From Pyropia yezoensis (taxonomy: Eukaryota > Rhodophyta > Bangiophyceae > Bangiales > Bangiaceae), in NCBI GenBank assembly GCA_009829735.1, contig CM020619.1, positions 15,011,589-15,075,588 on the forward strand: a stretch of 64,000 nt of DNA, given 5' to 3'. The notes beneath the pieces are model-generated. The model did not search any database. It saw nothing but the letters and a program-made list of their open reading frames with translations, and had not been told where the DNA came from. Shown piece by piece: positions 15,538 to 61,300 of the stretch; positions within the stretch are counted from its first letter, which is position 1, and each line of letters starts with the position of its first letter. The position numbers and the translations under genes are program-made.

Positions 15538-17983
15538 GATAGGCGTGGGCGAGGGAAACAATCAGGTCGTGAAGGGTTTGGCAGCCACAACACCACCGGG
15601 AGAGGGTGGACGAAGGGGGAGAGGAGAAGGTGTGCTCAAGGCCTGCGGCGGCAGAGGGCGTGTGTGAGTGTGTGGTTCCTGATTCGAGGCTGGGTAGGAG
15701 CGCTGCGATACTGGGTGTGGCCCGTACTTTCCCTCCCAGCCGCCAGCCGCGCCTTCTTGTACCGGTCGGGAGGACGCTGGCCGGCGTCGCCACCGCTGCT
15801 ACCGCGCGGACGTCAGTCGCCCACGAGCCGTGGTGGGGACGTCGCGGACGCAGCCAAAGCCGGCCGCGAGCAAATCGACAGAGGAGGGGGTGCGGCCAGG
15901 TGTTAGGGTGGTGCAAAGAGGTGGGGGGGGAGGGTTGGTGTGCAGCGAGCACAGCGGAACGTGGGCGCTGCGCGTGTATGGTCGCCACCTCGGAAGCGCG
16001 GTGGTGGCGTTAGAAGTGCCACTCATCATGATGGGGACCACAACCCCGCGCTGACTATCCGCCAGGACGCTCCGATCAACGCTGCTAGTGCTACGCTCAC
16101 GAGCTTCCCCGCACTGCGGCGGTGCGGTCGCGCGGGACGGCGGCGGCGCACGCGCAGGCCGTCATGCACAGGGGTGGATCGTCCACAGCGCCGCCTACGT
16201 ATGTGCCCATGACACACAGGCCGCCAGCCACCGCGAATCTAGGGGGACGCTCCGGCCACACAGCTCCTCTGAATACACCGAGCGGGTGGACAAGATCCTC
16301 CAGCGACCAACGTGCCTGTCATGGACAAGCCCTACGCTCCGCCTCCCATCCCCCACCCCCCGCCTCCCTCGGTGCGGGACTGGACGCCCAACAGCAGCAC
16401 GCGCGGGGTCTCCATCTCAACACACCGCCGCCGCACGCTCCCCTGGCTCGAAGTCTCCCCCCACGATGTCCGACAACCCCACCTCGATCTGCTCTTTGTT
16501 GTACACATGAGACAACCGGAGATTGCCATCAAACGTCCTCCACCTCCCCACCCTCAAATCCCCCACCCTGCTTCCCCGCCGTTGATGTATTCCAGCTTCG
16601 CCACGGCTCTGAACGAATGGTGCAATGACACAACCCCGCCTCGCGCCCCCCCGGGCCGCGGCGCCCGCGAGAGAGTGAGCAACAGGAACCTGTATATCAT
16701 ATGTATGGATACACATTTCCCAACATCACAACGGTTCGACGAGGCGGTGGACGCATGGGACGATCATCGCGACGGAGGGGTGGGTGGCGCGGTGACGAAC
16801 AGTTTGGAGCAGACGCGCACCCTCCTCCCCCCCCCCCCCAAAACACCACCGGGGGGAACCAAAGCCCCCCCACGCAAGACCGTGCAGTACCGTACTGACG
16901 TTCTGGCAACGTAGAAGCCGTGCGTATGCGGTCGTGGCGGCGATGCTCCGACGCCGGCGGAGGGAGAGATGGGCGCGGTGGGGTGGTCAGCCAATGCTGC
17001 TGAGCGGGCTGGCCCGACGGCCACTCGGGCGGGCTCGAGTGCCGCCTTCCCACCTGTGACCACGGGGAAGTGTCAGCGGCAGGGGCGCGCACAACCAGCG
17101 AAGGGGCTTGCAGGGCTCGGATTGGAATTCAGTGTGGATCCAGCCGGGAGCGGCGGCAAGCAACAGTATGTACTGTGCTGTTCGCAGTACAGTGTGTATA
17201 CAATTATTTTCCCGTGTTCTGTGTCCACGTTGCGCGGGATGTCGCATCGTGAGCCGGCGCGACTTCGCCGCGTCCATGCCCGCGGGGCAGGCATAGACCC
17301 TGCCAGCAGGGTGGGGGCATGTCAGGACCTGTTGCCACTGGCGGTGGTGGTGGTGGTGGTGGTGGTGATGGTGGTGGCGGTAGTGGGGGCTGTACTGAGT
17401 GACGTGGCCGTGGCGGTTGCAGTGGCGATGGTGGCGTTGGTGGCGGAGGAGGTGGCGGCCACCGTCCAGGGGCCGTTCTTGGAGGAACCACCCGGCGCTG
17501 GTCGGACCGCCGCCACAATAGGCCACGGACGTGGTCGCTTCAGCAGCGGCTCCCCCGTCGATGTGGTTTCCATTGTCGTCCGTGGGTGAGGCGTTGCTGC
17601 GGGCATACGCCCGGGCGTGCGTCTGACGCCGCCATTCGCCCCCCTTGCCTCCACAAGTATCGCCGCCATGGCCGGCGCGTCATCGGCCAGAACAGGAATT
17701 GCCACCCACACTGGTGCCGCGGTCGGCCGCGGCCACGAGTGGTGGCACAATGAGGGGAGCGGCCGACGCCGGGCAGTGCTCGGCCATGGCCGCCGCCGCG
17801 GAGAGCAGGCGGCTAGCTTGTCCCACCAAGGTCGACCGGCGGGGTACGTTCCGTGCCGCCCCGACGGTGGAGGCAGGCAAAAGGCGCTGTGCGAGCGGGT
17901 TAGGTACATTAGCGTCTAACAGATTTCTTTTCATATATTTAATGCGGAGGTTAGACTAGATTCACATGGCTTGCTTCGATCGA
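15538..17983. other. intergenic region
   Basis: Holds the LPMO promoter at its left end. Several Ala/Thr/Pro/Arg-rich frames exist on both strands (for example minus 17322-17909), but none has a motif I recognise. A GTACTGTGC...GCAGTACAG cluster lies at about 17165-17195. The last 60 bases before the copia element are AT-rich. Confidence 0.4.
17341..17381. repeat. GGT trinucleotide microsatellite
   Basis: About 13 GGT/GAT/GGC units in a row, with ACC on the other strand. Confidence 0.8.
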
Positions 17984-20900
17984 TGTGGATTCTTAGTGAA
18001 AGGGTCTATTGGAAAGTAGAAAGTGGGAGCCAACGGCCTTCGAACCGACCGGGCAATCGAGCAGAGGGTGGCCGTCGTCCGCGCGCACCCAAGCACGAGT
18101 CTATGCAATGATCCCCACTTGTCTTCCCCCTCCTCCCTCCTCGCTACTCGATGCGAGGGAGCGCTTATATAGGCGCGGAGTGTCTCACCACAGGCGTGAG
18201 ACGGCACTCCACACCCCATAGGCAAAGCATGCACACAAGGCAAAACAAACACACAACGCAGCGCGAGGATGCAGCGTCAAATTGCCAGCGCGGCCGACAT
18301 GTGTCAGCACGGCTGACGAAATGTGATGGAACCACGCGATTGGCTCCGTAACATTCCATCACCTTCCAGAATCATTCGCAATCACGGTTTCGACCATTAT
18401 GGAACTCGCGTGGCGTTACTGTCAGTGTGGATTCTTAGTGAAAGGGTCTATTGGAAAGTAGAAAGTGGGAGCCAACGGCCTTCGAACCGACCGGGCAATC
18501 GAGCAGAGGGTGGCCGTCGTCCGCGCGCACCCAAGCACGAGTCTATGCAATGATCCCCACTTGTCTTCCCCCTCCTCCCTCCTCGCTACTCGATGCGAGG
18601 GAGCGCTTATATAGGCGCGGAGTGTCTCACCACAGGCGTGAGACGGCACTCCACACCCCATAGGCAAAGCATGCACACAAGGCAAAACAAACACACAACG
18701 CAGCGCGAGGATGCAGCGTCAAATTGCCAGCGCGGCCGACATGTGTCAGCACGGCTGACGAAATGTGATGGAACCACGCGATTGGCTCCGTAACATTCCA
18801 TCACCTTCCAGAATCATTCGCAATCACGGTTTCGACCATTATGGAACTCGCGTGGCGTTACTGTCAGTGTGGATTCTTAGTGAAAGGGTCTATTGGAAAG
18901 TAGAAAGTGGGAGCCAACGGCCTTCGAACCGACCGGGCAATCGAGCAGAGGGTGGCCGTCGTCCGCGCGCACCCAAGCACGAGTCTATGCAATGATCCCC
19001 ACTTGTCTTCCCCCTCCTCCCTCCTCGCTACTCGATGCGAGGGAGCGCTTATATAGGCGCGGAGTGTCTCACCACAGGCGTGAGACGGCACTCCACACCC
19101 CATAGGCAAAGCATGCACACAAGGCAAAACAAACACACAACGCAGCGCGAGGATGCAGCGTCAAATTGCCAGCGCGGCCGACATGTGTCAGCACGGCTGA
19201 CGAAATGTGATGGAACCACGCGATTGGCTCCGTAACATTCCATCACCTTCCAGAATCATTCGCAATCACGGTTTCGACCATTATGGAACTCGCGTGGCGT
19301 TACTGTCAGTGTGGATTCTTAGTGAAAGGGTCTATTGGAAAGTAGAAAGTGGGAGCCAACGGCCTTCGAACCGACCGGGCAATCGAGCAGAGGGTGGCCG
19401 TCGTCCGCGCGCACCCAAGCACGAGTCTATGCAATGATCCCCACTTGTCTTCCCCCTCCTCCCTCCTCGCTACTCGATGCGAGGGAGCGCTTATATAGGC
19501 GCCGAGTGTCTCACCACAGGCGTGAGACGGCACTCCACACCCCATAGGCAAAGCATGCACACAAGGCAAAACAAACACACAACGCAGCGCGAGGATGCAG
19601 CGTCAAATTGCCAGCGCGGCCGACATGTGTCAGCACGGCTGACGAAATGTGATGGAACCACGCGATTGGCTCCGTAACATTCCATCACCTTCCAGAATCA
19701 TTCGCAATCACGGTTTCGACCATTATGGAACTCGCGTGGCGTTACTGTCAGTGTGGATTCTTAGTGAAAGGGTCTATTGGAAAGTAGAAAGTGGGAGCCA
19801 ACGGCCTTCGAACCGACCGGGCAATCGAGCAGAGGGTGGCCGTCGTCCGCGCGCACCCAAGCACGAGTCTATGCAATGATCCCCACTTGTCTTCCCCCTC
19901 CTCCCTCCTCGCTACTCGATGCGAGGGAGCGCTTATATAGGCGCCGAGTGTCTCACCACAGGCGTGAGACGGCACTCCACACCCCATAGGCAAAGCATGC
20001 ACACAAGGCAAAACAAACACACAACGCAGCGCGAGGATGCAGCGTCAAATTGCCAGCGCGGCCGACATGTGTCAGCACGGCTGACGAAATGTGATGGAAC
20101 CACGCGATTGGCTCCGTAACATTCCATCACCTTCCAGAATCATTCGCAATCACGGTTTCGACCATTATGGAACTCGCGTGGCGTTACTGTCAGTGTGGAT
20201 TCTTAGTGAAAGGGTCTATTGGAAAGTAGAAAGTGGGAGCCAACGGCCTTCGAACCGACCGGGCAATCGAGCAGAGGGTGGCCGTCGTCCGCGCGCACCC
20301 AAGCACGAGTCTATGCAATGATCCCCACTTGTCTTCCCCCTCCTCCCTCCTCGCTACTCGATGCGAGGGAGCGCTTATATAGGCGCGGAGTGTCTCACCA
20401 CAGGCGTGAGACGGCACTCCACACCCCATAGGCAAAGCATGCACACAAGGCAAAACAAACACACAACGCAGCGCGAGGATGCAGCGTCAAATTGCCAGCG
20501 CGGCCGACATGTGTCAGCACGGCTGACGAAATGTGATGGAACCACGCGATTGGCTCCGTAACATTCCATCACCTTCCAGAATCATTCGCAATCACGGTTT
20601 CGACCATTATGGAACTCGCGTGGCGTTACTGTCAGTGTGGATTCTTAGTGAAAGGGTCTATTGGAAAGTAGAAAGTGGGAGCCAACGGCCTTCGAACCGA
20701 CCGGGCAATCGAGCAGAGGGTGGCCGTCGTCCGCGCGCACCCAAGCACGAGTCTATGCAATGATCCCCACTTGTCTTCCCCCTCCTCCCTCCTCGCTACT
20801 CGATGCGAGGGAGCGCTTATATAGGCGCCGAGTGTCTCACCACAGGCGTGAGACGGCACTCCACACCCCATAGGCAAAGCATGCACACAAGGCAAAACAA

Positions 20901-22502
20901 ACACACAACGCAGCGCGAGGATGCAGCGTCAAATTGCCAGCGCGGCCGACATGTGTCAGCACGGCTGACGAAATGTGATGGAACCACGCGATTGGCTCCG
21001 TAACATTCCATCACCTTCCAGAATCATTCGCAATCACGGTTTCGACCATTATGGAACTCGCGTGGCGTTACTGTCAGTGTGGATTCTTAGTGAAAGGGTC
21101 TATTGGAAAGTAGAAAGTGGGAGCCAACGGCCTTCGAACCGACCGGGCAATCGAGCAGAGGGTGGCCGTCGTCCGCGCGCACCCAAGCACGAGTCTATGC
21201 AATGATCCCCACTTGTCTTCCCCCTCCTCCCTCCTCGCTACTCGATGCGAGGGAGCGCTTATATAGGCGCGGAGTGTCTCACCACAGGCGTGAGACGGCA
21301 CTCCACACCCCATAGGCAAAGCATGCACACAAGGCAAAACAAACACACAACGCAGCGCGAGGATGCAGCGTCAAATTGCCAGCGCGGCCGACATGTGTCA
21401 GCACGGCTGACGAAATGTGATGGAACCACGCGATTGGCTCCGTAACATTCCATCACCTTCCAGAATCATTCGCAATCACGGTTTCGACCATTATGGAACT
21501 CGCGTGGCGTTACTGTCAGTGTGGATTCTTAGTGAAAGGGTCTATTGGAAAGTAGAAAGTGGGAGCCAACGGCCTTCGAACCGACCGGGCAATCGAGCAG
21601 AGGGTGGCCGTCGTCCGCGCGCACCCAAGCACGAGTCTATGCAATGATCCCCACTTGTCTTCCCCCTCCTCCCTCCTCGCTACTCGATGCGAGGGAGCGC
21701 TTATATAGGCGCGGAGTGTCTCACCACAGGCGTGAGACGGCACTCCACACCCCATAGGCAAAGCATGCACACAAGGCAAAACAAACACACAACGCAGCGC
21801 GAGGATGCAGCGTCAAATTGCCAGCGCGGCCGACATGTGTCAGCACGGCTGACGAAATGTGATGGAACCACGCGATTGGCTCCGTAACATTCCATCACCT
21901 TCCAGAATCATTCGCAATCACGGTTTCGACCATTATGGAACTCGCGTGGCGTTACTGTCAGTGTGGATTCTTAGTGAAAGGGTCTATTGGAAAGTAGAAA
22001 GTGGGAGCCAACGGCCTTCGAACCGACCGGGCAATCGAGCAGAGGGTGGCCGTCGTCCGCGCGCACCCAAGCACGAGTCTATGCAATGATCCCCACTTGT
22101 CTTCCCCCTCCTCCCTCCTCGCTACTCGATGCGAGGGAGCGCTTATATAGGCGCGGAGTGTCTCACCACAGGCGTGAGACGGCACTCCACACCCCATAGG
22201 CAAAGCATGCACACAAGGCAAAACAAACACACAACGCAGCGCGAGGATGCAGCGTCAAATTGCCAGCGCGGCCGACATGTGTCAGCACGGCTGACGAAAT
22301 GTGATGGAACCACGCGATTGGCTCCGTAACATTCCATCACCTTCCAGAATCATTCGCAATCACGGTTTCGACCATTATGGAACTCGCGTGGCGTTACTGT
22401 CAGCAGCGACCGCAACATCCAAGATCATCCAGAACCATCTAGTGATGACTGGGCCGCGTCGGACAGCAATGTGACGCAGGTTCCATCAGCTATGGATTCA
22501 CA
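17984..22502 (-). repeat. expanded 3' LTR: ten tandem 442-bp units plus the 99-bp LTR start
   Basis: Units begin at 17984, 18426, 18868, 19310, 19752, 20194, 20636, 21078, 21520 and 21962; the single 99-bp remainder is 22404-22502. Every unit begins (plus strand) exactly at the LTR terminus TGTGGATTC and ends ...TTACTGTCAG. Each carries a CTATATAAG box on the element's strand. Units look identical except for one G/C variant beside that box, with C in units 4, 5 and 7. In element orientation this is LTR positions 100-541 repeated ten times. Confidence 0.97.
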
Positions 22503-23826
22503 CTCCCACCTTTTCCTTATCCGAGCGCTGCACCTCCGCTACGCTCGGCTGCCGGATGATCCACTGCTCCACAGGGTTCTGGTCCATCGCAGTCCGCAAG
22601 ACGTCGTCGAGACTCTGGCAGAATCCCGGCTTGGTCAGCCCGTCCGCAAGGTTGTTCGCCGACTTGACCAGGCCGACGTTGGTGATCTCGTTGCGGTTAT
22701 AGGCCTCCCGGGCAGCAGCAATGTCGATCATGAGCCGCTTCTCCGTCGTGTGGGATGCCCGCGTGATGACGTCGAACAGCTGCTTGGAGTCCGTAAGCAT
22801 CGTCAGCGGCACGCGCTGCTTGTACACGCGCTCCAGGTCGTGCTTGATGATGAAGGCCTCGTCGAACGCGTTGGCAAATGCGTAGACCTCGCCCGCCATG
22901 ATGGAGCGCACGACGCGACGGGACTTCTTGCTCGAGTAGGCCAGCACGTGGCAGCGATCAGCAGCATCACACAGCAGAATGATGAAGCCCAGCTGGGACG
23001 AGTTGTCGTCGTTCGACGCAAAGGACGCGTCAGCGTATACGCGCAGATGTAGAGTCGTCCGGTCCAGTGGCTTGTACGACAGCACCAGGTCCGCCGTCGA
23101 CTTGGCGTACTTGATCGCCTTGTTCAGCTCCTGCACGTGTCCCTTGGCAAAGGTCTTGGACGACACTTGAGCCGCGCGGTTGATCGCAGTGCACAGGTCC
23201 GGGCGGCTATGCGACAGCCACGCAAAGGAAGCGCGGACGGAGACGAAGTCGTCGTAGGTGATGTCCGTCGGCATGATGCGCACCAGCTTGATGTACTCCG
23301 GCTGACTCAGCGTGAAGTGCCGCCGGGGCGTAGTGAGAGTGCGCACCTGGACGCCCAGAAACTCCGTGTTGTCCCACTCACGCGGCTTGGACTCGAAGCG
23401 GGCCAGCGTCGTTTCCGTCAGGCGCTGGAACTCCTCGTTCCCGCCCAGCAGCATGTCGTCCACGTACGAGCCGAGAAGACCGTCGACGTCACCACCTCCG
23501 TCCTTGACGTACAGGTCCGGGTCCCCCGTCAGCGGCGACATAGACAGGTCGCCCTCAACGTGGGAAGTCATCGTCGCGCTCCAGTAGTCTCCCGCGTCAC
23601 AGAGGCCGTAGAGAGGCTTGAGGATGCGCAGCACTTCTTCGTCAGCGACACCCAGGATGGTACGGTCCTCCTCCCTCGGACTCAGGTACACAGGTCGAGA
23701 CAGCTTGTCCTTGCTCTGAAGGTAGGACTGGTTGACGTCGTGCGAGAAGACTCGAAAGCCGCGGACAGCACTGGTGGACACGATGATCTTCGTCGACCGC
23801 TGCCGCAGTGTAGACAAGTTGTGCAC
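22498..23826 (-). CDS. copia element: reverse transcriptase (C-terminal part) and RNase H
   Basis: Open stretch with FSHDVNQSYLQ, LKPLYGL, the catalytic YVDDMLLGG, and an RNase H region (AYADASFASN, SIMAGEVYAFANAFDEA). It ends where coding meets the purine tract and the first bases of the 3' LTR. Confidence 0.9.
   Translation of the reverse strand: MHNLSTLRQRSTKIIVSTSAVRGFRVFSHDVNQSYLQSKDKLSRPVYLSPREEDRTILGVADEEVLRILKPLYGLCDAGDYWSATMTSHVEGDLSMSPLTGDPDLYVKDGGGDVDGLLGSYVDDMLLGGNEEFQRLTETTLARFESKPREWDNTEFLGVQVRTLTTPRRHFTLSQPEYIKLVRIMPTDITYDDFVSVRASFAWLSHSRPDLCTAINRAAQVSSKTFAKGHVQELNKAIKYAKSTADLVLSYKPLDRTTLHLRVYADASFASNDDNSSQLGFIILLCDAADRCHVLAYSSKKSRRVVRSIMAGEVYAFANAFDEAFIIKHDLERVYKQRVPLTMLTDSKQLFDVITRASHTTEKRLMIDIAAAREAYNRNEITNVGLVKSANNLADGLTKPGFCQSLDDVLRTAMDQNPVEQWIIRQPSVAEVQRSDKEKVGV
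22503..22518 (-). other. copia polypurine tract
   Basis: On the element's strand AAGGAAAAGGTGGGAG directly precedes the 3' LTR start TGTGAATCC, the position and composition expected of the plus-strand primer. Confidence 0.8.
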
Positions 23827-23856
23827 GACGAACGGCTTGGCGTGATCGCGGTTGCC

Positions 23857-25626
23857 CTACACGACGTAGCGACTCTTCCCCTTCTCCTCGGTCGTACCGA
23901 CGTGCTTCAGCACGTGCACAAAACGGCCACCCAGGATGTTGGCGTGACGGGGCAGGGACTTGCGCTTGACTGCAACCCACACCTTCCGCTTCAGGAGTCC
24001 CTCTGCTTCAGCCCGGCGCGCGTCTTGGATTATCTTTGACGATATGCGCGCGTCGCCAGTCTTGAGCACCTCCGTCACGTACACCTCTGTAGCTCGCGGA
24101 AGGGCGGTCGGCGCATGCTCCGTCGCAGGTACCGATGCCGTCGGCACGACTTGTCCGTCTTCAGCAACCTCGACGACGTCCCGAACACGAGGCCCGCCTG
24201 ACACAGGCGTCACATGATCAGCAGCCGTAGTGGAAGTCTCCTCGGCCTGCTCCGGCCGGTACTCCTTCACCTTGTCCACGGAGAAGAGCTTCACGGAGTT
24301 GCCAACGTTGAGCCACACTTGCTTGCCATTGGTTGACAGAACACGGTACGGCCCCAACCATCGATCAACCGGCTTCTCGCGGTAGACCAACACGGACATA
24401 CCTGCTCGGATGATAGCATCAGCAGAGGCGGGGACGCGGCTGCGCGCGGCGCGCTCCAGCCGCGACTTGGCGACGTGCTTTGCCATCTCGTCCCGGGCGG
24501 CGTGCATCGCCATGACACGGTCGCGTTGCCCAGGAAGGTTTACCGGCGTCACGGGCATCCGCGGCAGGACCCCAAAGACCATCAGAGTCGGCACGAGCCC
24601 GCTCGGTCCAGCCGTCTGGTTCATGCCCCACACAGAGAGTGCCAGAGCGTCCTCCACGGGCAAGTCCGAGTGAGCAGCCCTGACCCGCCAGTAGATCCGC
24701 CGCAGGAAGGCATGGTAGCGCTCGCCGACGCCAAGAGAGTTGTGCGACTCCACGCCGGACTCCAGTCGCTTGATGCCCGCAGACAGCTGCAGCGCCTTCC
24801 ATTCGTCCGACGCGAGCTGTGGTCCTTGGTCGGTGTGCATGAAGTCCGAATAGCCGATGTACGGAGTCACCCAGCAACGCACGTACGCCCGCCAGACGTC
24901 CTCCGTCGACTCGCCGTTGGAAAGGAAGGTCGCGGCACTGAAGAGCGTGTCCTTGTCGACCACGTGCAGCAGCGGCTTCCCGTCGAGGTACATGATGTCC
25001 AGCAGCACCGTCCGGTTGAAGACTATGTCGCCAGGTGGCAATGCTACGCGGAACCGACTTGGATCCTTCGCGAGCCGCTGGCATAGGTCACAATTACGGG
25101 ACACGTCCTGCAGCTGCTTCAAGGTGCTTGGCTTGGCGTGCTCTCCGCCGGCCTTGTTGATGACGGCGTAAAGGCGGTCCGGCTGCGGATGGAAGAAGTG
25201 TCGGTGCAGCTTGCGCAGTTCCGGCATGGTGTAGAGCACGTTCTGCTCCCAGACATAGTAAACGTGACCAAGCTTGCGCACCAGCGGCACCGTGACGGAG
25301 TAGGCTTCGCACACGAGTCGGTTGAGCACGGTGTTGGCGTACATACGGAACTTGTCGAGGATGTCCAGCCCGAACAGCAGAGGCACGTTCACGTCCACGA
25401 CGTTCACCATCAGCTGCATGAAGAAGTCGTCGGCCAGAGGGATGCGCATAGCCAGCGTGCCAATACTGGCGTGCCGGCTTCCGCCAAAGCGGTACACCTC
25501 GGGCACCTTGTCCCGCTTGAGTCGTCGTGGCAGTCCCGCCCAGTTCAGGTACGCGTAGGCTTGCGGCTTGCCGATGACGGTGCGTTGTGCGCCAGTGTCG
25601 ACGCACGCCCCTTGGAAGTCTTCCAC
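23857..25626 (-). CDS. copia element: aspartic protease and integrase
   Basis: Starts with the protease motif CVDTGAQRTVIG. A GAG-pre-integrase zinc segment (HRHFFH ... CDLCQ) follows, then an integrase core with DIMYLDG, HTDQGPQLASDEW and SHNSLGVGERYHAF, and a tail that binds the surrounding pol region. Confidence 0.9.
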   Translation of the reverse strand: MEDFQGACVDTGAQRTVIGKPQAYAYLNWAGLPRRLKRDKVPEVYRFGGSRHASIGTLAMRIPLADDFFMQLMVNVVDVNVPLLFGLDILDKFRMYANTVLNRLVCEAYSVTVPLVRKLGHVYYVWEQNVLYTMPELRKLHRHFFHPQPDRLYAVINKAGGEHAKPSTLKQLQDVSRNCDLCQRLAKDPSRFRVALPPGDIVFNRTVLLDIMYLDGKPLLHVVDKDTLFSAATFLSNGESTEDVWRAYVRCWVTPYIGYSDFMHTDQGPQLASDEWKALQLSAGIKRLESGVESHNSLGVGERYHAFLRRIYWRVRAAHSDLPVEDALALSVWGMNQTAGPSGLVPTLMVFGVLPRMPVTPVNLPGQRDRVMAMHAARDEMAKHVAKSRLERAARSRVPASADAIIRAGMSVLVYREKPVDRWLGPYRVLSTNGKQVWLNVGNSVKLFSVDKVKEYRPEQAEETSTTAADHVTPVSGGPRVRDVVEVAEDGQVVPTASVPATEHAPTALPRATEVYVTEVLKTGDARISSKIIQDARRAEAEGLLKRKVWVAVKRKSLPRHANILGGRFVHVLKHVGTTEEKGKSRYVV

Positions 25627-25721
25627 CGTCTCCAGCAGAGTCAGGAAGCCGGGGTCCTCTTCGATACGCGGGGGTCGACCCCGCCGTCTGTGTGCGAGGG
25701 CAAGTCGACGACTCCTGCCCT

Positions 25722-27257
25722 CTACGCAAAATCCGACTCGTCGCTCTGCACCCCGTCGTCGTCCTTGGCGGCCGGCTCCGAGTCCTGCACGAGAGTCTCA
25801 AAGACGTCGACGTCGTTCTGCGCCGCGCCACCCGCTTCGTCGCTCTCGTCAGCCTTGTCGCCGTCGTCGTCTTCACCCGTGACTCCAGCCGCATCCAGCT
25901 GCGAGCATAGCTGGTACAAGACGGCGCTGGCCGCGGGCTGCGTAGCGCGCTTCTTGGCGTAGTACTCCAGCTTACGCTTAGCGGCCTTGACGGCGTTGAC
26001 GGGATGAGGGCAGTTGCCAAGGGAGTGCGAGCGATCGTCGCAGTTGAAGCATCCCATCAGGGACAATGGGTCGAAGCGCGGCTCGCTACCGCTGCCCTTG
26101 ACTGCACCGTGTCGCTTGCCGAAGTCCTTGTTCCGGCGCACGTAGTGACCTTGGCCAGCGAACAGGATCCCGGGCACCTTGTCCTCCACAGGCGTAGGTC
26201 CGCGCGCGACCTCATCGCGCATGACCGCCATGCGAGCCTCGTTGTGCAGGTGAAGCGCGGCTTCCAGCTCACCGAACAGCTGCTGGAACGTCAAGCGGTG
26301 CGTCGCGATGCGGCTCAGGGGCTCAGTCGCCCACGCGTTGCCGACAACCGCGTTGCGCAGGAACTCCACCTTGTAGGACTCGCCATGATGAGACCGGGGC
26401 ACTTGGGGCGCCAGCTTACTGATAGTCTTGTACGTCTTTTCCAGCGCCGCCGTGACGTCGGTCCCGTCCTTGACGAAGGAGCTCAGTCGCAAGCCGCTCA
26501 GGTAGTTCTTGACTCGGTCTTGACGGACGATGGAGTTGTACTCGGCACTGACCATGTCGACGGCCTGCGCAAACGTAGCCGCGGTCCCGTGCACACGGTC
26601 CAGGAAGAAGCGCTTGGCATCGCCGCGCAGCAGGTTGTGCAAGTACTGCAGCTTCTGGGACGCAGTCAGCTCGTAGTCACGCGCGACCTGCTGGTACTCG
26701 GCGACATACTCGTTCCAGCTCTCGCCGAGGTTACCACTGAACTTGGCAGCTTGGTCGCGGGAGCGCATGGCGACGTTGTGGGCTGCACGATCAGCGCTGG
26801 CCCCCGACGCCGCAGCGCTGGTAGCAGTAGACAGCGCGCTCTCGTGCTGCACGCCCGCCACACAGGAACGACGACCAGCCGCTTCCACCTCCGAGGCCAT
26901 CTCCGTGGCGACAGACCGCTCTTCGGCTTCCGGGTACAGCGCCGTCGCCAGCGTCATCTTGATGCGGTGTGAGGGATGCTGCTCCAGGTTGGCACCACGC
27001 GCGTTCAGCCAGTTGCGCAGGTCCCGATGAAGGTACGGCAACGCCACCAAGCTCGGGCTGAAGAGGACGGCAGGCGGGAGTAGCTCAGAGACAGCAGCCT
27101 TGACCTGCTCGCCCGACATCGGCGTAGCCGCCATCTCGGCCTCCAGCATGCGGACAGAGGCCACCACGCCCTTCTTCTCCTCGTTCAGCAGGCTGTCGTC
27201 CGCGGCCGCCATGAAGGTAGGCAGCGCCCCATGAGTAGTCGCAGAGACGTCCGCCAT
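25722..27257 (-). CDS. copia element: gag
   Basis: 511 residues. Central helical part (SWNEYVAEYQQVARDYELTA, LHNLLRGDAKRFFL) of the copia gag type and one CX2CX4HX4C zinc knuckle, CFNCDDRSHSLGNC, near 26010-26055. An acidic C-terminus follows. Gag packages the element RNA in virus-like particles. Confidence 0.88.
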   Translation of the reverse strand: MADVSATTHGALPTFMAAADDSLLNEEKKGVVASVRMLEAEMAATPMSGEQVKAAVSELLPPAVLFSPSLVALPYLHRDLRNWLNARGANLEQHPSHRIKMTLATALYPEAEERSVATEMASEVEAAGRRSCVAGVQHESALSTATSAAASGASADRAAHNVAMRSRDQAAKFSGNLGESWNEYVAEYQQVARDYELTASQKLQYLHNLLRGDAKRFFLDRVHGTAATFAQAVDMVSAEYNSIVRQDRVKNYLSGLRLSSFVKDGTDVTAALEKTYKTISKLAPQVPRSHHGESYKVEFLRNAVVGNAWATEPLSRIATHRLTFQQLFGELEAALHLHNEARMAVMRDEVARGPTPVEDKVPGILFAGQGHYVRRNKDFGKRHGAVKGSGSEPRFDPLSLMGCFNCDDRSHSLGNCPHPVNAVKAAKRKLEYYAKKRATQPAASAVLYQLCSQLDAAGVTGEDDDGDKADESDEAGGAAQNDVDVFETLVQDSEPAAKDDDGVQSDESDFA

Positions 27258-27741
27258 TGTTGCGCGTCAACGAGCACTCGCAGCACAGCAGGAACTGCAG
27301 ACCACGCGGGCAGCAGACACACACGACGTCGCACTCACCCGAGCGTCCACAACAGCACAGCACGCAGGCAGACACACCCCGTCCGAGTTGCGGGCGTCCT
27401 TCCCCAAGCCTGTCGGCGCACCGGTGTTACCCGGAGGAGGTCGGCCGTAGACCTTATGGAACGTCAACACGCACGCGTGCCAAGGATTCTAGGCAGGCTC
27501 CGACCCGAAGGCCGGCGCCCCAGGCACCAGGCGCGCGCACGCTCAGTCCCCCCGTTGGTTCAAGTGCCCTTGCCCTTGTACTGCGCCGTGCATACGCGCG
27601 GCGCGACCTTGACAGCCGTGCACACCTTGCGCACACGTACTCCGCCCGTACACAGCTACGCGGCGTCCTCGTCTTGTTCCCGTGCACCGTCCCCGTCCGG
27701 CGCACGTCTTGTTGAGGGTCACCTTGATCGTTATTCGCGAA

Positions 27742-28282
27742 TGTGGATTCTTAGTGAAAGGGTCTATTGGAAAGTAGAAAGTGGGAGCCAACGGCCTTCG
27801 AACCGACCGGGCAATCGAGCAGAGGGTGGCCGTCGTCCGCGCGCACCCAAGCACGAGTCTATGCAATGATCCCCACTTGTCTTCCCCCTCCTCCCTCCTC
27901 GCTACTCGATGCGAGGGAGCGCTTATATAGGCGCGGAGTGTCTCACCACAGGCGTGAGACGGCACTCCACACCCCATAGGCAAAGCATGCACACAAGGCA
28001 AAACAAACACACAACGCAGCGCGAGGATGCAGCGTCAAATTGCCAGCGCGGCCGACATGTGTCAGCACGGCTGACGAAATGTGATGGAACCACGCGATTG
28101 GCTCCGTAACATTCCATCACCTTCCAGAATCATTCGCAATCACGGTTTCGACCATTATGGAACTCGCGTGGCGTTACTGTCAGCAGCGACCGCAACATCC
28201 AAGATCATCCAGAACCATCTAGTGATGACTGGGCCGCGTCGGACAGCAATGTGACGCAGGTTCCATCAGCTATGGATTCACA
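27742..28282 (-). repeat. copia 5' LTR (541 bp, single copy)
   Basis: Same sequence as the last array unit plus the 99-bp remainder; termini TGTG...CACA. The first 20 bases of the leader on the element's strand (from 27741) do not begin with the usual TGG-type tRNA primer site. Confidence 0.95.
27922..27930 (-). promoter_or_regulatory. TATA box of the copia LTR
   Basis: CTATATAAG on the element's strand, inside a GC-rich flank. Transcription would start about 30 bases further into the element. The same box recurs in each array unit. Confidence 0.6.
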
Positions 28283-29663
28283 ATCGAAGCACATCTATAT
28301 ATGTAGAACTACGAACAGAAATACTTCGATGAGTAAGTATTGTTAGCGAAGCTCCTATGTGAAGCAGCCACGCTTGTTGTCGCGCTAACGCCAATTGATT
28401 GGTCCACGTATTTGCAATGTCAAATTGCTCCTAGCCACACGTTAGACCGGTATGGCTCGAGTGGCACGATACGACGGCGAGCCGTCGGTGCTGTCTAGCT
28501 GCCAGCGGCCCTCGTTACGGTTGCCTTGTGGTGCCCACTCGCTTCGGGAGAGTGGGCGGCCTGGTCGGGGAGGGGGAAGGGGGACTCGGGTCGGGGGGTC
28601 ATCCGCTGTGCCTGGGGGGGGCGCGGCTGCGGCCGGAGTCGGGGCGGCTGCTGCGGGGGGAGGGGGCGGCGGCTGCCTGGCGTTGGGCGGCTGTGTTCAT
28701 GCGGGGTGTGGCCGCTGCCAGGCAGGGGGGGCGGCCGCGGCCGCGAGAGCGGCGGCTGAGGCAGGGTGTGGGGCGGCCTCTTCCGGAGAGGGGGCTTCCA
28801 CAGGCGGCTAGCGGTGGGAGCGGGCGGCCGCTGCCGGGGACATGGCGACGGCTGGCGGCTGCGGCCGGGGTCGGGGCGCGGTGTTGCTGAGGATGGGGTG
28901 GCCACGGCCCGGTAGGGGGCGGCCGCCGCAGTGTGGGTTGGGCGGCGGCAGCTGAGGGGGGGGGGGCTGCTGCCCGGGGGAGAGCAGCCGCTGCCGGGGG
29001 TGGGGCAGCCGCTGGCGGCTGGGGGAGGGGGTCGGGTGGTTGCTGCCTGTAGGGGGGCTGCGGCTGCGGGCGGCTGGGGGCATTCGGTGGGCGACCAGGG
29101 CCGGGTGGGGGGTGGCTGCTGCTTGGGGCGGGGAGGCCGCTGGTGGTCGGGGGCGGGGGGTTGGCGGCCACTGCGTGAGGTGGGGCGGCTGCGGCCGGGG
29201 GGGCGCGGGTGCCGCCGGGGGCGGTGTTTTAGGGCGGCGGGGGCGGGCGGTCGCTGCCGGGGGGGGGGGCGCTGTGGTCGCGGGGGGTTTTAGCTGCTGC
29301 CGGGGGGTGGGTGGCCGCCGCCTCGGGTGGCGGCTGGGGGCAGCGGTGGGGTGCGGGTTGGTTCGAGGTCGGGGGCGGCTGTGGCTGGGTGGATAGCGGC
29401 GGGGGGCGGAGCGGGGCGGCGCGGGGGGACTGTTAGTAGTGGGGGGCGCGGCCTGGGGGCGGCCGCCAGTGCTTGGCGGGGCGGGGGTGTCCGCGGATGG
29501 GGGGGAGTACGTGGGGGAGCGCCCTGCTGTTGGAGGAGGCGTCGGCCAGGCGCCGTTGCGGCCGCGCCTCTGGGAACGTTGGCGACCGGTGGGTGGGCTA
29601 TGACCAGCAGGGGCAATGTATTGGAGTACATGGTTGGCATTGCGGCCGCCGCGGCGGGCGCCG
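28283..29663. repeat. AT-rich patch then degenerate G-rich low-complexity tract
   Basis: 28283-28450 is AT-rich and flanks the copia target. From about 28540 to 29500 the plus strand is an irregular succession of GGGCGGC/TGCGGC/GGGGG words without a clean period. Many G runs could form quadruplexes. No protein recognised. Confidence 0.5.
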
Positions 29664-50142: not shown

Positions 50143-52952
50143 GGCCCGTCAAGGAAGGGGAGCAGGGGGGGGGATGCGGGGAGCGGGACACGGAGGCTGC
50201 GGGGCCACGCGCCAGGCACAAGCCCGGCGAAATCGGGCGCGGCCAGCCGCCGCCGGGGCGGCGACGGGCGCGCACCCGCGTCGGCGTGGGCGGCCGGCGG
50301 CGCGAGTCGGTAGCCGCGCGCACACACGCGCCGGCGCCGTCGGTGCACCGCACGGCAACGAGGCCGGCAACACCCCCCACCCCCGCCCCACCCGCCACCC
50401 CGCCCCAGGCAGGCGGGCGGGCGGGTGGGCGAGTGGGCGGGTGGCCGGGGGCGGCGGCGTCAGCGGCAACGGCACCGGCGGCACTGACGGCACTGGGGGC
50501 AGCACTGGCGACGGGGGTCGGGCGGGGGTGGCAGACGCGGAAAGGGAGCCAACGGCGGGGACACGCGGCGGCGCCCCCCCCCCACCGACCACCACCCGCG
50601 GAAGCAGACGGCAGGGCGGGGGGTGGTTGGGCGGCGGCGGCGGCGGGGTGGGTGCGGGTCGTGGCCCCACCACGACCCACCGCGGAGCGCACCACGGGGC
50701 CCACGAGGTAGGTGCCCGCCGGCCACGGAGGAGGGGGGTGGGGACGTGCAGGTGCAGCCACCGGTGAGGGGGGGGGGGCGCGCGGAGAGGGCTGGCGGGC
50801 CGTTTCCGCCAGCCGCGGGAACCTCGGCCCCCGGCCTTGCCACCGCAGCGAGCGCTGGCAACCCCGCCTCGGCGCTAGGCCGCCGCCGCCCCCGCCGGAC
50901 GAGGACCCGCCGGCGCTGATCATTGGCTGCCGCTCGAATGGAATGGCCCGCAGCCTCGCGCGTGGGCGGCGGAGAGGGGCGGCTGAACAAAATCGCGGAC
51001 GGGCTCTCGAGACACGCGAGGGCACAGCGCGGCGGGGGTGGCCGAAAGAGCTGACGGCCAGCCAGAATATCCGTGGTACAGTTGGAGACACGTAAGACTA
51101 AGTGGGCGTGGCGTGGCGGACAGCTGAGCGAATTCCGACGCGTATGCCGAAGCATCGTCGTGCATGCCAAGAAGTTTGAGCGGTGCACACACCGCGACGC
51201 TGTCGGGCGGACGGGACGGCGGGCGGCGCAGTGGGGCTTTAACCGTGTACTGTACAGCCAGTGGCCAAAATCGTTTGTCCACTTAACAGCTGAAACTACA
51301 ATAATTAATTTGTCACGATCTGCACCCTGCCCAGGCGCGCTGGGTTTGCAGCCAGCGGCTGCGACTTTGGGGTGGGCACTGCAAGTAAGTAAGTAACCGT
51401 GGATGGAAGTAAGGTTGGGACCGTCTGTCACCATTTGAGCAGGGTTACTCGATTGGATTCCCGTACCTGGACTCGAAGCCAGGCCACCCCCCCACCCCCG
51501 AGTGCGGCCACCCCCCCCTGACGGCCATCCCCCCTGCGCCCTGCAGGCCACACCCCCACCCCCGTGAGCGGCCACCCCCCTCTGGCGGCCAGCCCACTCT
51601 GGCGGCCACCCCCCTGCGCCCTCGCTCTCGGCAGTGCGTGCTCCTTGGCCACGCTTTGGCCCACCCCCCACCCCCGTGAGCGGCCACCCCCCTCTGGCGG
51701 CCACCCCTCTCTGGCGGCCACCCCCCTGCGCCCTCGCTCTCGGCAGTGCCTGCTCCTTGGCCATGCTTTGGCCCACCCCCCCTGGCGGGCACCCTTCTGG
51801 CGGTGCCACCCCCCTGCGGCGCGCTCCTCCGGCGCGGCGCCGCCATTTCCGGGTGTCGCCTTTTTTGCGGCCCTCCCACTCCCTCGTGGCGGCGGTGCTC
51901 GCCCGGCGTTGCCGCCCCCCTGGCCGGCGTGGCCCTGTCCTGGTGTCGCCCCTCTTTGCGGCGCTCCCCCTCCCTCGAGGCGGCGGTGCTCCTCTGGCGT
52001 TGCCCCCCCTCTGGCCGGCGTGGCCCTCGTCTGGTGTCGCCCCTCTTTGCCGCGCTCCTCCACCCTCGTGGCGTATCTGGCCTGTCGGCCACGTCTTTCT
52101 GCGGCGTTTGACGATGTTACTGCCGACGACCGGTTTTTTGCCACTGCGGCCACCTCTCTTTTGTGGTGCCCACGCCTCATTGCCGCCGGCGACCTCTCTC
52201 TGGTCGCACCCCCCCCCCTTTAACGGACAGCCCTCCCTGTTGGCGTCCAGCCCCCCCCCTCCGCAGCCCCCGCGGTATTAATCCCTGACTTGCAGCGGTC
52301 ACTCTCCCCCGGCGACATTTATGTCCCCCTGTCCGCGCCTCTTGCGATTGGGGGTCATCCCACCGTGGCGGCGGCGGGTGGTGTAGTCGCTGGCGGCAAC
52401 TGCGGTGGAGGTGGCAGCTTGGAGTGCAGCATGGGGGGGGGGGGGCAATCCGGCTGGATGACGGCGGGCGCCCGGTGGGTGGCTCGTGACTTATGCGTCC
52501 TCGCACTCGCCCTCCTTTTTCGGCGGACGCACCTGTGGTTCCTGGGCTTTTTGGTGGACAGCCTTCACGTCCATCATCATCATCAGGCGATAGCCATGCT
52601 CCTCTACCCGCTATAGGAGCCGCTGCCAGGTGGCTTTTTGCTATATTTTGCGCCGGCCGTGGCCAAGGGGGGGGGGGTGGCGACGATGGGGGCTGTAGTG
52701 GTGGTGCTGACGGTGGCAGCGGCGGGTCACCGCCGCCCCCCCCCCTCCCAGCCCCGCTCGCCCCGGCCACGCTATCACCGAAACCGCCGTATGCTCCCAT
52801 TCTTTCGTGGGCGGGCACCGGGCCCGCCGCTCACTTTGCAACTATGAGTCGACAATGGGTCAGAGAGCGTGGGAGGTGTCCAGGTGGACGGGTTGTTGAG
52901 TGCAGTCATGGAAACGAGATAACAGGATGAAAGGTGCTTTTAAACGGGCAGC
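50143..52952. other. intergenic region
   Basis: Starts with the PP2C promoter. 50.1-50.9 kb is GC-rich low complexity; 51.0-51.45 kb is less biased and holds GTGTACTGTACAGCC at about 51244-51258. The tandem repeats below follow. Frames at 52.2-52.9 kb (Gly/Pro-rich, both strands) are not convincing. Confidence 0.4.
51601..52075. repeat. two neighbouring tandem repeats, about 112-bp and 90-bp periods
   Basis: GGCGGCCACCCCCCTGCGCC starts a unit at 51601 and again at 51713 (112-bp period, partial second unit). A different unit beginning TGTCGCC(C/T)(C/T)T starts at 51854, 51944 and 52035 (about 90 bp). Both share GGCGGCCACC / CTGGCCGGCGTGGCC words. Confidence 0.75.
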
Positions 52953-56368: not shown

Positions 56369-58339
56369 GTGTCATACGGATCGTCAGCCAACATGGCTAG
56401 CTCGGACCCCCCGTCGTCCGGGGAGTACACGGGTGACGCACGTACTTCAGTGCCTTTGAATACTGGTGAGACACAGGTGGGTTTACCTGGGGTCGCAGAG
56501 GGACTAGAGGTCCCTCAAGCCAGCAGGACTGGAAGTACGGGCGGGCAACAGGCCACCCCGACTCAGTCGGGAGTTCACTCGGGTGACACTTCTGATGTGG
56601 GTGGGCCGAAGTCTGGCCACCGCGTGGTATACTCAACGGGAACGTCCCAAGGGGTGAGGACTGTCCCCGCGGGTTCCACTCGGGTTGGAGCCAACTTTGG
56701 CTTGGAGTCGTCGCCAACTAGGCTTTCGGAGGACGGTGGACCTCCGTTGGTCGGCGATGGGCTCGCGCCCATGCCCCCGGTTGAGACCCCTGAGGAACGT
56801 GGTTACCCCTCAGGTGGACTCCCGGAGGCGGACCGAGACTCAACTGGAGTCGTCAATCCACTCCTCGCGGAAACTGTCCGTCGGGAGGCGACCAATGTGT
56901 TGCGGCAGACTTTGCCGGACCTGGTGGTCACGATGACGAATACTATTCTGAATCAGATTGTGGCGAGTTTGCCAGATGGCCTTAATGTCCAGACCGGATT
57001 GGGGCTTTCGAGCCCGCAAGGGCAGGGGGAATCCCCCCTTACGCCTATCTCTGGTCGCCCCGAACTGGGGGCGACACCTGTGACTCCCAACGAGGGAGCC
57101 ACACCATACTCGGTGGGGCGTACGCCCTTCACGGGGGAGTTCCCCCCGGAAACGCCGGCGGCTACACCAAGCGCGCCGCGCCGGACTACAGGCACTGAGA
57201 GTGAACTTACCCCAGTGCCACAGCGGCTGTTCCCTCAACGTGAGGTGCCGCCCAAGATCCAGGTAGCCAACCCGGTCTACCAGAGGATCTTTGACTGTGA
57301 GACCTACGCCCTCCACAACAAGTCGGTGGCGTATGGTCCTGACCAGGCCCGAGCCATGGGCCGTGCCAAGAAGAATGCACTTCATTCTTTTGGGCACAAA
57401 GCGGAGTGGGACGGAACTCCCCCCCTCCGTGTCTTTGAGTTCCTACGTCGTTTCACAAAAGCCTGTGACGACAATGCCATAAGTGAAGGCATGGCTTTTT
57501 ACATGCTACAGGGGTTTACGAAGGGCGACCTACGGACAGAACTTATGTCCGTCATGCCCAGCTCCTCAAGTGGAGGCGCTGGGGAGGTGACGTCCTATTT
57601 GGAGCTCGTCAACTGGTTGTTGAGAGCCATGGTTGATGAGGCAGCGTTGGCTTCTCAAGTCGAGGAGTTTACGCAAGCCCATCAGGAAGAGGCGGAGGAC
57701 GAGTTGTCCTTTGCGGAGCGAGTCCGTAAGCTCAACAATCTTTGTGGGTTTCTTCATCCACAAGCTGTGGTGAAGAGTCGGTTTGTGGAGGGACTCCATT
57801 GGTCAGTCCGGATGGAGACCCGGGAGCATAACACTACCCGGGCGACCCTGGCCGAGTTGGCCAGGTTCGCCTATCGCAGAGGCGAGGCCTACCGCAAGTT
57901 GCGGGAGGAACAACGCCAGGAGCGTCAGGCCGAGTTGGCCAAGGAACGGGAGGAGGCGCGCCAGGCCAGAGAGTTGAGAGAGGCACACCGAATCCGCAAG
58001 GAGAGGGTGGTAGCTGCCGTGGGAACTTCCCAGGGTATCCCTTCGTCTTCCCCAGTTGGGAAGACCCCTCCCGGACCGGACCATCGGTGTTGGAACTGCA
58101 ACTCCGATGGTCACTGGGCATATGATTGCCCCAAGTTGAGTAAACGCATCCAACAACTTGTTAGGAATGCGAGTAAAAAGTCGGCTACGAACGAAGTACG
58201 TTCACGCCGCGAGGGTGGGTCTCGACCGGTCGTTGCGGTCGCCACACCCTCGGCGGAGGAGGCGGACACGTCGTCCTCGGACTCGTCGTCTTCCTCCCCG
58301 CCCTCAGATTCGGACGCCAAGTCGGCGGGAAACGAATGA
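56369..58339 (+). CDS. gypsy element: gag
   Basis: 656 residues; the ATG at 56393 (AACATGGCT) may be the start used. A capsid-like central part (about residues 300-520, with HSFGHKAEWDGTPPLRVFEFLRR-type retrotransposon gag motifs) is followed by a charged coiled coil and one CX2CX4HX4C zinc knuckle, CWNCNSDGHWAYDC. The tail is Ser/Asp-rich. Its stop overlaps the first codon of pol in ATGA. Confidence 0.9.
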   Translation: MSYGSSANMASSDPPSSGEYTGDARTSVPLNTGETQVGLPGVAEGLEVPQASRTGSTGGQQATPTQSGVHSGDTSDVGGPKSGHRVVYSTGTSQGVRTVPAGSTRVGANFGLESSPTRLSEDGGPPLVGDGLAPMPPVETPEERGYPSGGLPEADRDSTGVVNPLLAETVRREATNVLRQTLPDLVVTMTNTILNQIVASLPDGLNVQTGLGLSSPQGQGESPLTPISGRPELGATPVTPNEGATPYSVGRTPFTGEFPPETPAATPSAPRRTTGTESELTPVPQRLFPQREVPPKIQVANPVYQRIFDCETYALHNKSVAYGPDQARAMGRAKKNALHSFGHKAEWDGTPPLRVFEFLRRFTKACDDNAISEGMAFYMLQGFTKGDLRTELMSVMPSSSSGGAGEVTSYLELVNWLLRAMVDEAALASQVEEFTQAHQEEAEDELSFAERVRKLNNLCGFLHPQAVVKSRFVEGLHWSVRMETREHNTTRATLAELARFAYRRGEAYRKLREEQRQERQAELAKEREEARQARELREAHRIRKERVVAAVGTSQGIPSSSPVGKTPPGPDHRCWNCNSDGHWAYDCPKLSKRIQQLVRNASKKSATNEVRSRREGGSRPVVAVATPSAEEADTSSSDSSSSSPPSDSDAKSAGNE

Positions 58340-61300
58340 CCGTTGGGGCTGGTCGTCCGAAGCTCACAACGGCAGCCTCGGCCAAGTGGGCCAGGAGGAC
58401 GAACCAACCGTGCCGGATACTGCGGCGACCTAAGGGAGTCCGCCCACCTCGGGTAGGACTCCCCAAGAACGTAAACCCACGTCGGGTCATCGCGGTGCTG
58501 ACGGGTGAGAACTTCCAGGTGGCTGGACGGGTGCAACTTGCCCCCGGCCGTGCATGCTGTACCCGTATCGTACTTGATACCGGGTCAGGAGCCTCCTTGA
58601 TACGCAAGTCGCTGTTACCAAAGGAGGTGAAGCTCCAACGCTGGAGGTCCAAAGCTGACCATATGATTGACATCAATGGTGGGGTACTTCCCATCGTTGG
58701 TGCCGTGACCCTACCAACTAGGTTGGGGACCCATGAGGTCGACGTGACCTATGGCGTAGTTGAGAATATATCGGTACCCCTGCTTCTGGGTACCCCTTAT
58801 GTTGTTACACAAGTGCCTTTGATTTGTGGCCCTGAGTACTGGGTCAAGTTGATGAATGGGGAGACTATCCCCATCCTTGGTAAGGGAAAGTCTGTGGCTC
58901 CTGTGACAGTGTCACAGTCGAAGCCTGTTTGCTCTGTGAGGGAAGGGTTTACTGCTACCCTGCGTTTAGCCCGCAAAGTCACGTTGTCCCCCAACTCGGT
59001 GGCGCACGTTGATGTTGTAACTGATTTTACGGGGAACGGGTTGGTGCACCCTCACCCCCGTCTTGCTCGCAAGCACCAAGTGCATGTTGCCCTTGGCACG
59101 ATGGACTCCAAAGCCGGAGTCCCGTGGAGGATCCAGGTGATGAACCTGAGCCCGACGCCCAAGTACTTCAAGTCGGGAGCCAAGTTCGGCTATATCGACC
59201 AACACGAGGGACCGGTAGTAGCGGTCACCCTCAACGCGGGCGCAAGTAGCGACCCGAAGTCCGGAAAGGAGAAGCATCAAACCAAGTCGGCCGCCTCTCC
59301 TCGACCCCATGTGAACATGGAGGGTGTCCCCCCCAGGTTGAGGGTTCAAGTTGAACGCCTCTTGGACCAATATCACAAGCTGTGGGATGGTCAATTGGGA
59401 CTCATGAGAGCCACCCAACACCGGATCGAGTTGAAGCCCGGTGCACCCCCTATACGCCAACAACCGTATAGGGGAGGACCTCGTTCAAGGGCCCTCGTTA
59501 AGGAGCAAGTTGCTCACATGGAGGCCCTCGATGTGATCGAGGCCAGCAACGCCGAGTGGGCGAGTCCGGTGGTTATCGTCCCCAAAGTTGATGGGACCCC
59601 CCGGTTTTGTATCGACTACCGTAAGCTCAACGAGAGCACGGTGAAGGACAGTTATCCCCTACCTAGGATGGATGACTGTCTGGACTCTCTGGGGGAGGCA
59701 AACGTGTTCTCTACCCTGGACTGTAACGCGGGGTACTGGCAAATTCCCATAGCCCCGGAGGACAGGCATAAAACTACCTTTACCTGTCACTGTGGTACCT
59801 ACCAGTGCAAGCGCCTACCGTTTGGTCTGTGTAACGCGCCGGCAACTTTCCAGCGCGCTATGGACATGATTCTGGCCGGAGTACGGTGGCAGATCTGTCT
59901 TGTGTACCTGGACGATATCATTGTGTTCTCCCGAAGTCCGGAGGAACACATTGGCCATCTTGGCCAGGTGTTCAAGCTACTTGCTGACGCCGGTGTGTCA
60001 CTGAAGGCGAGTAAGTGCTACCTCTTTACTCAAGAGGTGGAGTACTTGGGACATGTTGTCCATCCGGGGCGTCTCAGTGTTAACGAGAAGAACTTGAGGG
60101 CCATTCGTAAGGCTCAGTACCCCCGGACCCAGACCCAGATGAGGAGCTTCCTCGGGATGTGTAACGTGTACCGACGTTTCACCAAGGGCTTCGCCAAGGT
60201 GGCGAAGCCGTTGAATGAGCTAGTGAGCTCAACGCTACCGAAGAACCTGCCTCCCCCAAGTCGGGTGGAGCAGGAATCCTTTGAGACTCTTCGGGACCTT
60301 CTGCTGAAGCCCCCCATCTTGGCTATTCCCAGGTTGGGAGGCCACTACATCCTGGATGTGGACGCTAGCTACGACCAACTTGGTTGTGTGTTGCTTCAGC
60401 AGCAGCCGGACAAGGAGTACTTGCCGGTGGGATACTTTAGTAAGGGGCTGAACTCGGCCGAGAAGAACTACGGAGTCACCGAGTTGGAAGGACTCGCAGT
60501 GGTGTGGGCGGTGACGTCACTTCGTCACTACCTGGAGGGTGAGAAGTTCCTCATCCGCTGTGACCACCGCGCGTTGCAGTTCATCTTTAAGACGGACTGT
60601 ACGAACACTCGTCTCAACCGGTGGAGGGTGCGACTGGCACCCTTCAACTTTGACATTGAGTACCGACCTGGCAGGCAACATGCCCTTGCCGACGGCCTCT
60701 CTCGGGTACCTACCGAGGGGCTGGACACTAACCCAGTCGATGAGGACATCCCCATCGTGGGGGTAGTCACGCGCTCGGGTCAGGCGTTGAACCCCGAGGC
60801 GCCAGGGAACAAGAAGTACTTGCCCCTGTCCCTGGACGAGGTGGTGAAGGCCCAGGCCGAGGATCCCTTCTGCAAGTCGCAGAGGGATATACTGGATACG
60901 GTGGTTGAGACGCGCTTCTTTCTGGGAGACGATGGCCTCCTCATGAGGAGGGGGGTATTCCAGGGGACCGAACAACTTGTCGTCCCCGCATCCCTCAAGG
61001 ACAGTATCCTTGAGAGGGAGCACAACGCTCCCACGGGTGGACACCTGGGGTCTAGTAAACTGTACCAGACCCTGAGGACCAGGTACTACTGGCCGTCCAT
61101 GGTGGTGGACATCTACAGTTGGGTGGCTGCCTGCACAAGTTGTGCACAGAATCGTCTGATGGAACGGCGGCCTAGTACGGCTATGCTATTGTTCCCGGCC
61201 AAGGAGCCCTTCGCCGCGTTGGCGATGGACATCCTTGGGCCACTGCCCGTGACCGAGGAGGGCAACCAGTACCTCCTGGTCATCTGTGACCGGAAGCGCG

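Follow-up and report, generated by a model that had tools for sequence, protein, structure and literature searches.

A Ty1/copia retrotransposon in the genome of nori, the edible red seaweed Pyropia yezoensis, carries one LTR of normal length and one that consists largely of a tenfold array of its own outer part, and this array has the look of a satellite repeat at an early stage of its formation. The element lies at 17984-28282, on the minus strand, of the window (the whole 64-kb stretch of DNA that was analysed), within a single ATCGA target duplication; its tenfold LTR array, at 17984-22502, had been reported in a first-pass annotation and is confirmed in the assembled sequence. The origin of satellite arrays is an old open question, and most arrays are seen long after the event. 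Here all ten units, hardly diverged, are found together with the parent element, its target duplication and a single 5' LTR, which allows us to propose a sequence of events: the element inserted, a non-homologous joint formed once at the LTR terminus, and homologous growth followed. The parts of the locus are the following:

17979-17983: target duplication ATCGA, left copy (flanks compared)
17984-22403, minus strand: ten units of 442 bp arrayed head to tail, each corresponding to LTR positions 100-541 as the element reads (TRF and unit comparison)
17984-22502, minus strand: expanded 3' LTR, 4519 bp long and comprising both the array and the 99-bp LTR start (base-by-base comparison)
19503: private G>C, position 194 of unit 4
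19945: private G>C, position 194 of unit 5
20829: private G>C, position 194 of unit 7
22404-22502, minus strand: single, non-repeated 99-bp LTR start (LTR positions 1-99)
22503-22518, minus strand: purine-rich stretch adjoining the 3' LTR, a putative polypurine tract by position and composition
22503-27741, minus strand: internal region of 5239 bp, with a copia-type reverse transcriptase (RVT_2) and a weak integrase-core match upstream of it
27742-28282, minus strand: normal 5' LTR of 541 bp, same sequence as array unit 1 plus the tail
28283-28287: target duplication ATCGA, right copy (flanks compared)

TRF placed the array at 17984-22403, with a period of 442, 10.0 copies, 99% matches and a score of 8819. 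When the ten units were compared base by base, seven proved identical (units 1-3, 6 and 8-10), and the only difference across 4420 bases was a G>C that units 4, 5 and 7 share at their position 194. Joined to the 99-bp tail, unit 1 matches the 5' LTR (27742-28282) at every one of its 541 positions. Since the purine-rich stretch at 22503 and the RVT_2 match lie on the minus strand, the element reads leftwards and the array is its 3' LTR, the repeated side being the outer, U5 end. The base comparison thus agrees with the anatomy claimed in the first-pass annotation (a 541-bp LTR against one of about 4.5 kb, ten 442-bp units plus 99 bp, one ATCGA duplication), and all nine joints bear out its further claim that each unit is LTR 100-541 in element orientation and ends exactly at the LTR terminus.

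The assignment to Ty1/copia draws on the RVT_2 domain (PF07727, 41.3 bits against a curated cut-off of 31.6, minus strand), on LTR ends of the form TGTG..CACA (TG..CA) and on the 5-bp target duplication; a weak integrase-core match (rve, 17.9 bits, below its cut-off of 32.6) stands in the frame upstream of the reverse transcriptase, which would be the order of Ty1/copia. The RVT_2 match contains an in-frame stop, which is present in none of the eight sibling elements among the RVT_2 matches listed. Next to the 5' LTR, the sequence at 27700-27741 does not start with the TGG of the usual tRNA primer site, and this family may use an unusual primer. The tenfold promoter of the first-pass annotation is no more than a count of motifs: a single TATA-like motif occurs in each LTR, at position 354, which lies within the repeated unit. 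The private G>C falls at LTR position 348 (element orientation), six bases before this motif in units 4, 5 and 7.

The count of ten units rests on a PacBio RSII assembly. According to the genome report, HGAP contigs were followed by mate pairs, PBJelly gap closing and Quiver polishing, and then by optical maps and Hi-C, yielding scaffolds of 29.4, 34.3 and 43.6 Mb for an estimated genome of ~108 Mb with 65% GC (PMC7423979); the assembly that we searched has 107.5 Mb in 11 contigs, three of them of 43.6, 34.3 and 29.4 Mb. One or a few true units might have been inflated by read overlap or gap filling, or their number might be wrong, and the HGAP, PBJelly and Quiver steps as well as a primary contig N50 of 340.8 kb speak for such an artefact (PMC7423979). 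Against it, the 64-kb window holds no N, and a false joint would have to sit exactly on the LTR terminus, while the junction-pattern search found the joint in no other LTR. The 4.4-kb array is, moreover, shorter than typical PacBio RSII reads. We therefore consider an artefact quite unlikely.

All nine unit-unit junctions read GTCAG/TGTGG (the slash marks the joint), so that, as the element reads, LTR position 541 is directly succeeded by position 100; where the array passes into the 99-bp tail the sequence is GTCAG/CAGCG, and at the outer edge of the array it is ATCGA/TGTGG. The latter two are the native contexts of the joint, and they have no base in common on either side, so microhomology at the joint is zero. 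A 29-base junction pattern, allowing up to two mismatches, occurred nine times in the 107.5-Mb assembly, always in the window array and at no second locus, and its backwards control occurred nowhere in the assembly. Slippage requires short homology; as the native contexts have none at the joint, we reject slippage on short repeats as the first step, and replication slippage, one of the causes listed in the first-pass annotation, is accordingly disfavoured for that step. A chance illegitimate tandem duplication, later enlarged by unequal exchange, would require nothing specific to retrotransposons, and its second breakpoint, at LTR 100, indeed bears no visible mark; its other breakpoint would have fallen by accident on the exact terminus, which we estimate as a one-in-several-hundred event, again at a joint that lacks microhomology, making this a very unlikely origin.

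A breakpoint exactly on the LTR terminus points instead to an end made by integration. Autointegration products show such a joint, in which an exact LTR end meets an internal site with which it has no homology, and the same joint is also expected of a second integration or of an end-joined terminus. The GTCAG that precedes each joint is a candidate 5-bp integration target. A target-site matrix built from ten insertions has no power to support it (leave-one-out percentiles of 0.22-0.95), and it placed the GTCAG site 110th among 515 in the LTR and, relative to the window, at percentile 0.71.

The family to which the element belongs proved young. The 99-bp LTR start matched 21 places in the assembly, two in the window and 19 elsewhere, and all 19 other LTRs are single, with a length of 541 or 542 bp; 17 of them differ from the window LTR at 0-3 positions and two (L025 and L026) at 28 and 31. 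In eight elements with two LTRs close to the window LTR, the window element included (with unit 1 plus the tail taken as its 3' LTR), the two LTRs differ from one another at 0, 0, 0, 0, 0, 1, 1 and 2 positions, which argues that the family is young. The internal region of 5239 bp has the same length as that of a sibling at C3:20.7 Mb. Among the ten insertions with both edges readable, nine have perfect 5-bp duplications and one matches at four of five bases. The two duplications of the sibling L015/L016 (C2:10.71 Mb) differ at one base, with CGGAT on one side and CGAAT on the other. Another sibling (L021, C3:9697900-9701900) has identical LTRs only 2840 bp apart and is ~2.9 kb shorter inside than the window element.

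In reverse transcription, both LTRs are copied from one and the same source of information. The normal, identical 5' LTR thus places the expansion after reverse transcription, and on this ground we reject an array made during it; repeated strand transfer in reverse transcription, also proposed in the first-pass annotation, is disfavoured by the same single 5' LTR, identical to unit 1 plus the tail. Repeated template switching that builds the array before integration would yield near-identical units in one event, and the U5 end is a natural cDNA end. It would also demand nine identical non-homologous jumps, which is implausible, it leaves the normal 5' LTR unaccounted for, and it fits poorly with the single form of the other 19 LTRs that share the 99-bp start; we regard it as scarcely credible. 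Transcripts would normally end in the first R, so that outer units need not enter new insertions, and outer array units were found in none of these 19 LTRs.

How the array grew can be read from the private variant. With its context, the G>C occurs three times in the assembly, each time in unit 4, 5 or 7, and the odds of two more independent substitutions at the same site and to the same base are ~6e-7. In a toy model of block duplication with one mutation, which is illustrative only, three non-adjacent carriers arose in 8% of the runs and a single carrier in 50%. The presence of the variant in the non-adjacent units 4, 5 and 7 supports in-register unequal exchange or conversion among units, and unequal exchange was indeed among the causes that the first-pass annotation had offered; a one-shot amplification of a single unit would not put the same substitution into these three units. 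The G>C calls could be polishing errors. Taken together, the growth step is better supported than the step that made the first joint.

For that first joint we tentatively favour, at somewhat less than an even chance, a second integration into the 3' LTR, followed by recombination between the nested copies and by growth through in-register unequal exchange or conversion. A young copia element would have inserted once, leaving ATCGA on both sides, and integrase would then have linked a second copy, by its outer terminus, to a site inside the 3' LTR, with GTCAG serving as the 5-bp target; this copy would have been either a sibling cDNA or a sibling insertion, in the same orientation. Homologous recombination between the nested pair, which would share 99 + 5239 + 541 bp, could have removed the extra body, so that the LTR retained a single additional 442-bp unit. 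From these two units, in-register unequal sister exchange or gene conversion could have built an array of ten and carried a newly arisen G>C into three of its units. The second integration, the nested recombination and the number of exchange steps are the parts that we infer.

Several observations are consistent with a second integration. Nine joints sit exactly at the LTR terminus with no common base in the native contexts, the family makes 5-bp duplications, the outer ATCGA is intact and the internal 5239 bp match the sibling at C3:20.7 Mb; the single 5' LTR places the change after both LTRs were made, and the confinement of the C variant to units 4, 5 and 7 across the assembly speaks for growth by exchange. 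Against it, a second hit within one 541-bp LTR is improbable for a family with 21 LTR-start matches in 107 Mb, an objection that is lifted if cDNAs strike one another. Furthermore, no remnant of a nested copy survives, the powerless target-site test lends GTCAG no support, and other first steps would yield the same final structure.

One such first step is an unfinished integration, in which the gap at a newly joined LTR terminus breaks, the end is joined to a sister-chromatid break at LTR 100, and exchange enlarges the resulting duplication. It would explain the exact terminus and the zero microhomology without a second insertion, and it suits the fact that only one end of the element is affected; the price is a second break and an end joining without loss at the LTR end, of which there is no direct trace, and we hold it to be unlikely.

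A further possibility is autointegration, in which the U5 end would have attacked position 100 in the 3' LTR of the same cDNA, releasing a 442-bp circle that recombined into the LTR of the insertion, possibly after multiplying by rolling replication. Two truncated circles have been described as the product of autointegration (PMC4751563), and the circle predicted from the joint would equal the 442-bp unit. In Magnaporthe, circles of MAGGY, MGRL3 and GYMAG1 are reported to arise mainly by autointegration, while those of Copia1 are reported to arise mainly by homologous recombination (PMC9694575), which tells somewhat against the idea; yeast Ty circles, as described, lack signs of autointegration save for one consistent read (PMC4751563). 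The circle would also be very small and would have to recombine with the chromosome, and a single rolling template with no later exchange would leave the C in units 4, 5 and 7 unexplained. An origin from such a circle is thus, in our estimate, rather improbable.

The second integration that we favour and the circle belong to a broader idea, possible but doubtful, that integrase can start a satellite: autointegration or transfer of one cDNA into another would create the exact joint, and the resulting minicircle or nested pair would then be amplified. If true, this would be a route from an integration by-product to tandem repeats, observed while the family concerned is still young, and such by-products would furnish tandem repeats with exact-ended seeds. 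The locus would also offer a simple marker that can be counted, if cultivated strains differ in their number of units.

We also looked for arrays of this kind in other copia elements. Of 144 RVT_2 places, the 20 best-scoring (10 kb each, one tandem triple counted once) held no LTR array; nine of these loci had an LTR-spaced repeat, one a 5010-bp element tandem, one only a repeat with a 6-bp period and nine nothing, and these last nine, having no visible LTR pair, add little weight to the negative result. TRF found repeats with periods of 61-95 bp and 2.0-3.3 copies in three of the surveyed loci (L031, L038 and L043). Assembly-wide searches with three surveyed LTRs, representing two families (those of L031 and L048 are one), revealed no second array among the best candidates scored, nor did a search with the array itself, in which the best 40 of 50 candidates were scored. 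Three distant relatives (C2:2.88, C3:6.48 and C3:26.68 Mb) match the array in two pieces, and two of them were aligned. Elsewhere in the window, Ty3/gypsy-type open frames lie on the plus strand at 56369-61380, with a zinc knuckle followed by RVT_1, RNase H and Integrase_H2C2, and two GC-rich tandem repeats, of ~112 and 91 bp with 2.1 and 2.5 copies, lie at 51548-52073.

Compared with known systems, the array shares features with several. In shared-LTR tandem elements, head-to-tail copies arise by in-register recombination and the repeat comprises the LTR and the body; the nori array is likewise head-to-tail, but its unit is LTR 100-541 only and holds no internal region. At C1:23413740-23430694, three RVT_2 matches follow one another at intervals of exactly 5010 bp, and the first 10 kb (L029) contain a direct repeat of 5010 bp; this is probably a shared-LTR tandem of another copia family. 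As in an LTR-derived satellite, the nori units are near-identical and head-to-tail, with one variable site among ten; such a satellite is also independent of its parent, and long or multilocus, whereas the nine junctions here occupy one locus inside the element. As the array still lies inside its parent element at one locus, we call it satellite-seed-like and do not class it as a satellite: the phrase 'seed of a satellite' in the first-pass annotation is fair as a description, with the proviso that the junction pattern occurs at one locus only.

Autointegration circles resemble the array in joining an LTR end to an internal site of the same family; as far as the excerpts of the source papers go, they are extrachromosomal and no chromosomal array is described, whereas the nori array is chromosomal (PMC4751563, PMC9694575). 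The unit of Sobo in potato, RPCS in rodents and other LTR-related satellites contains or resembles an LTR, as in nori; Sobo differs in its ~360 kb and its mixed 4.7-kb unit, and these satellites form large arrays for which the excerpted accounts mention no parent insertion with a target duplication (PMC3648361, PMC9659126, PMC6947457). The first-pass annotation had deemed the arrangement unfamiliar, and its exact form did not appear in titles or abstracts among the matches listed from the open-licence literature; LTR-derived tandem repeats as such are documented, in maize, where CRM1TR and CRM4TR derive wholly from the LTR and UTR of one retrotransposon family (PMC3648361). For these, the authors proposed illegitimate recombination for the first joint and gene conversion as the main mode of growth, leaving unequal exchange and circles possible and mentioning nested insertions (PMC3648361). 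CRM1TR and CRM4TR are like the nori array in stemming from a single retrotransposon family; they come, however, from Ty3/gypsy centromeric elements rather than from copia, their units run from a point within the LTR to one in the UTR whereas those of nori are bounded by the outer LTR terminus, and by the published dating they were amplified at least ~4 and ~1 million years ago whereas the nori array is young (PMC3648361). What is unusual here is thus a young array that lies inside its own parent element and is bounded by the exact LTR terminus.
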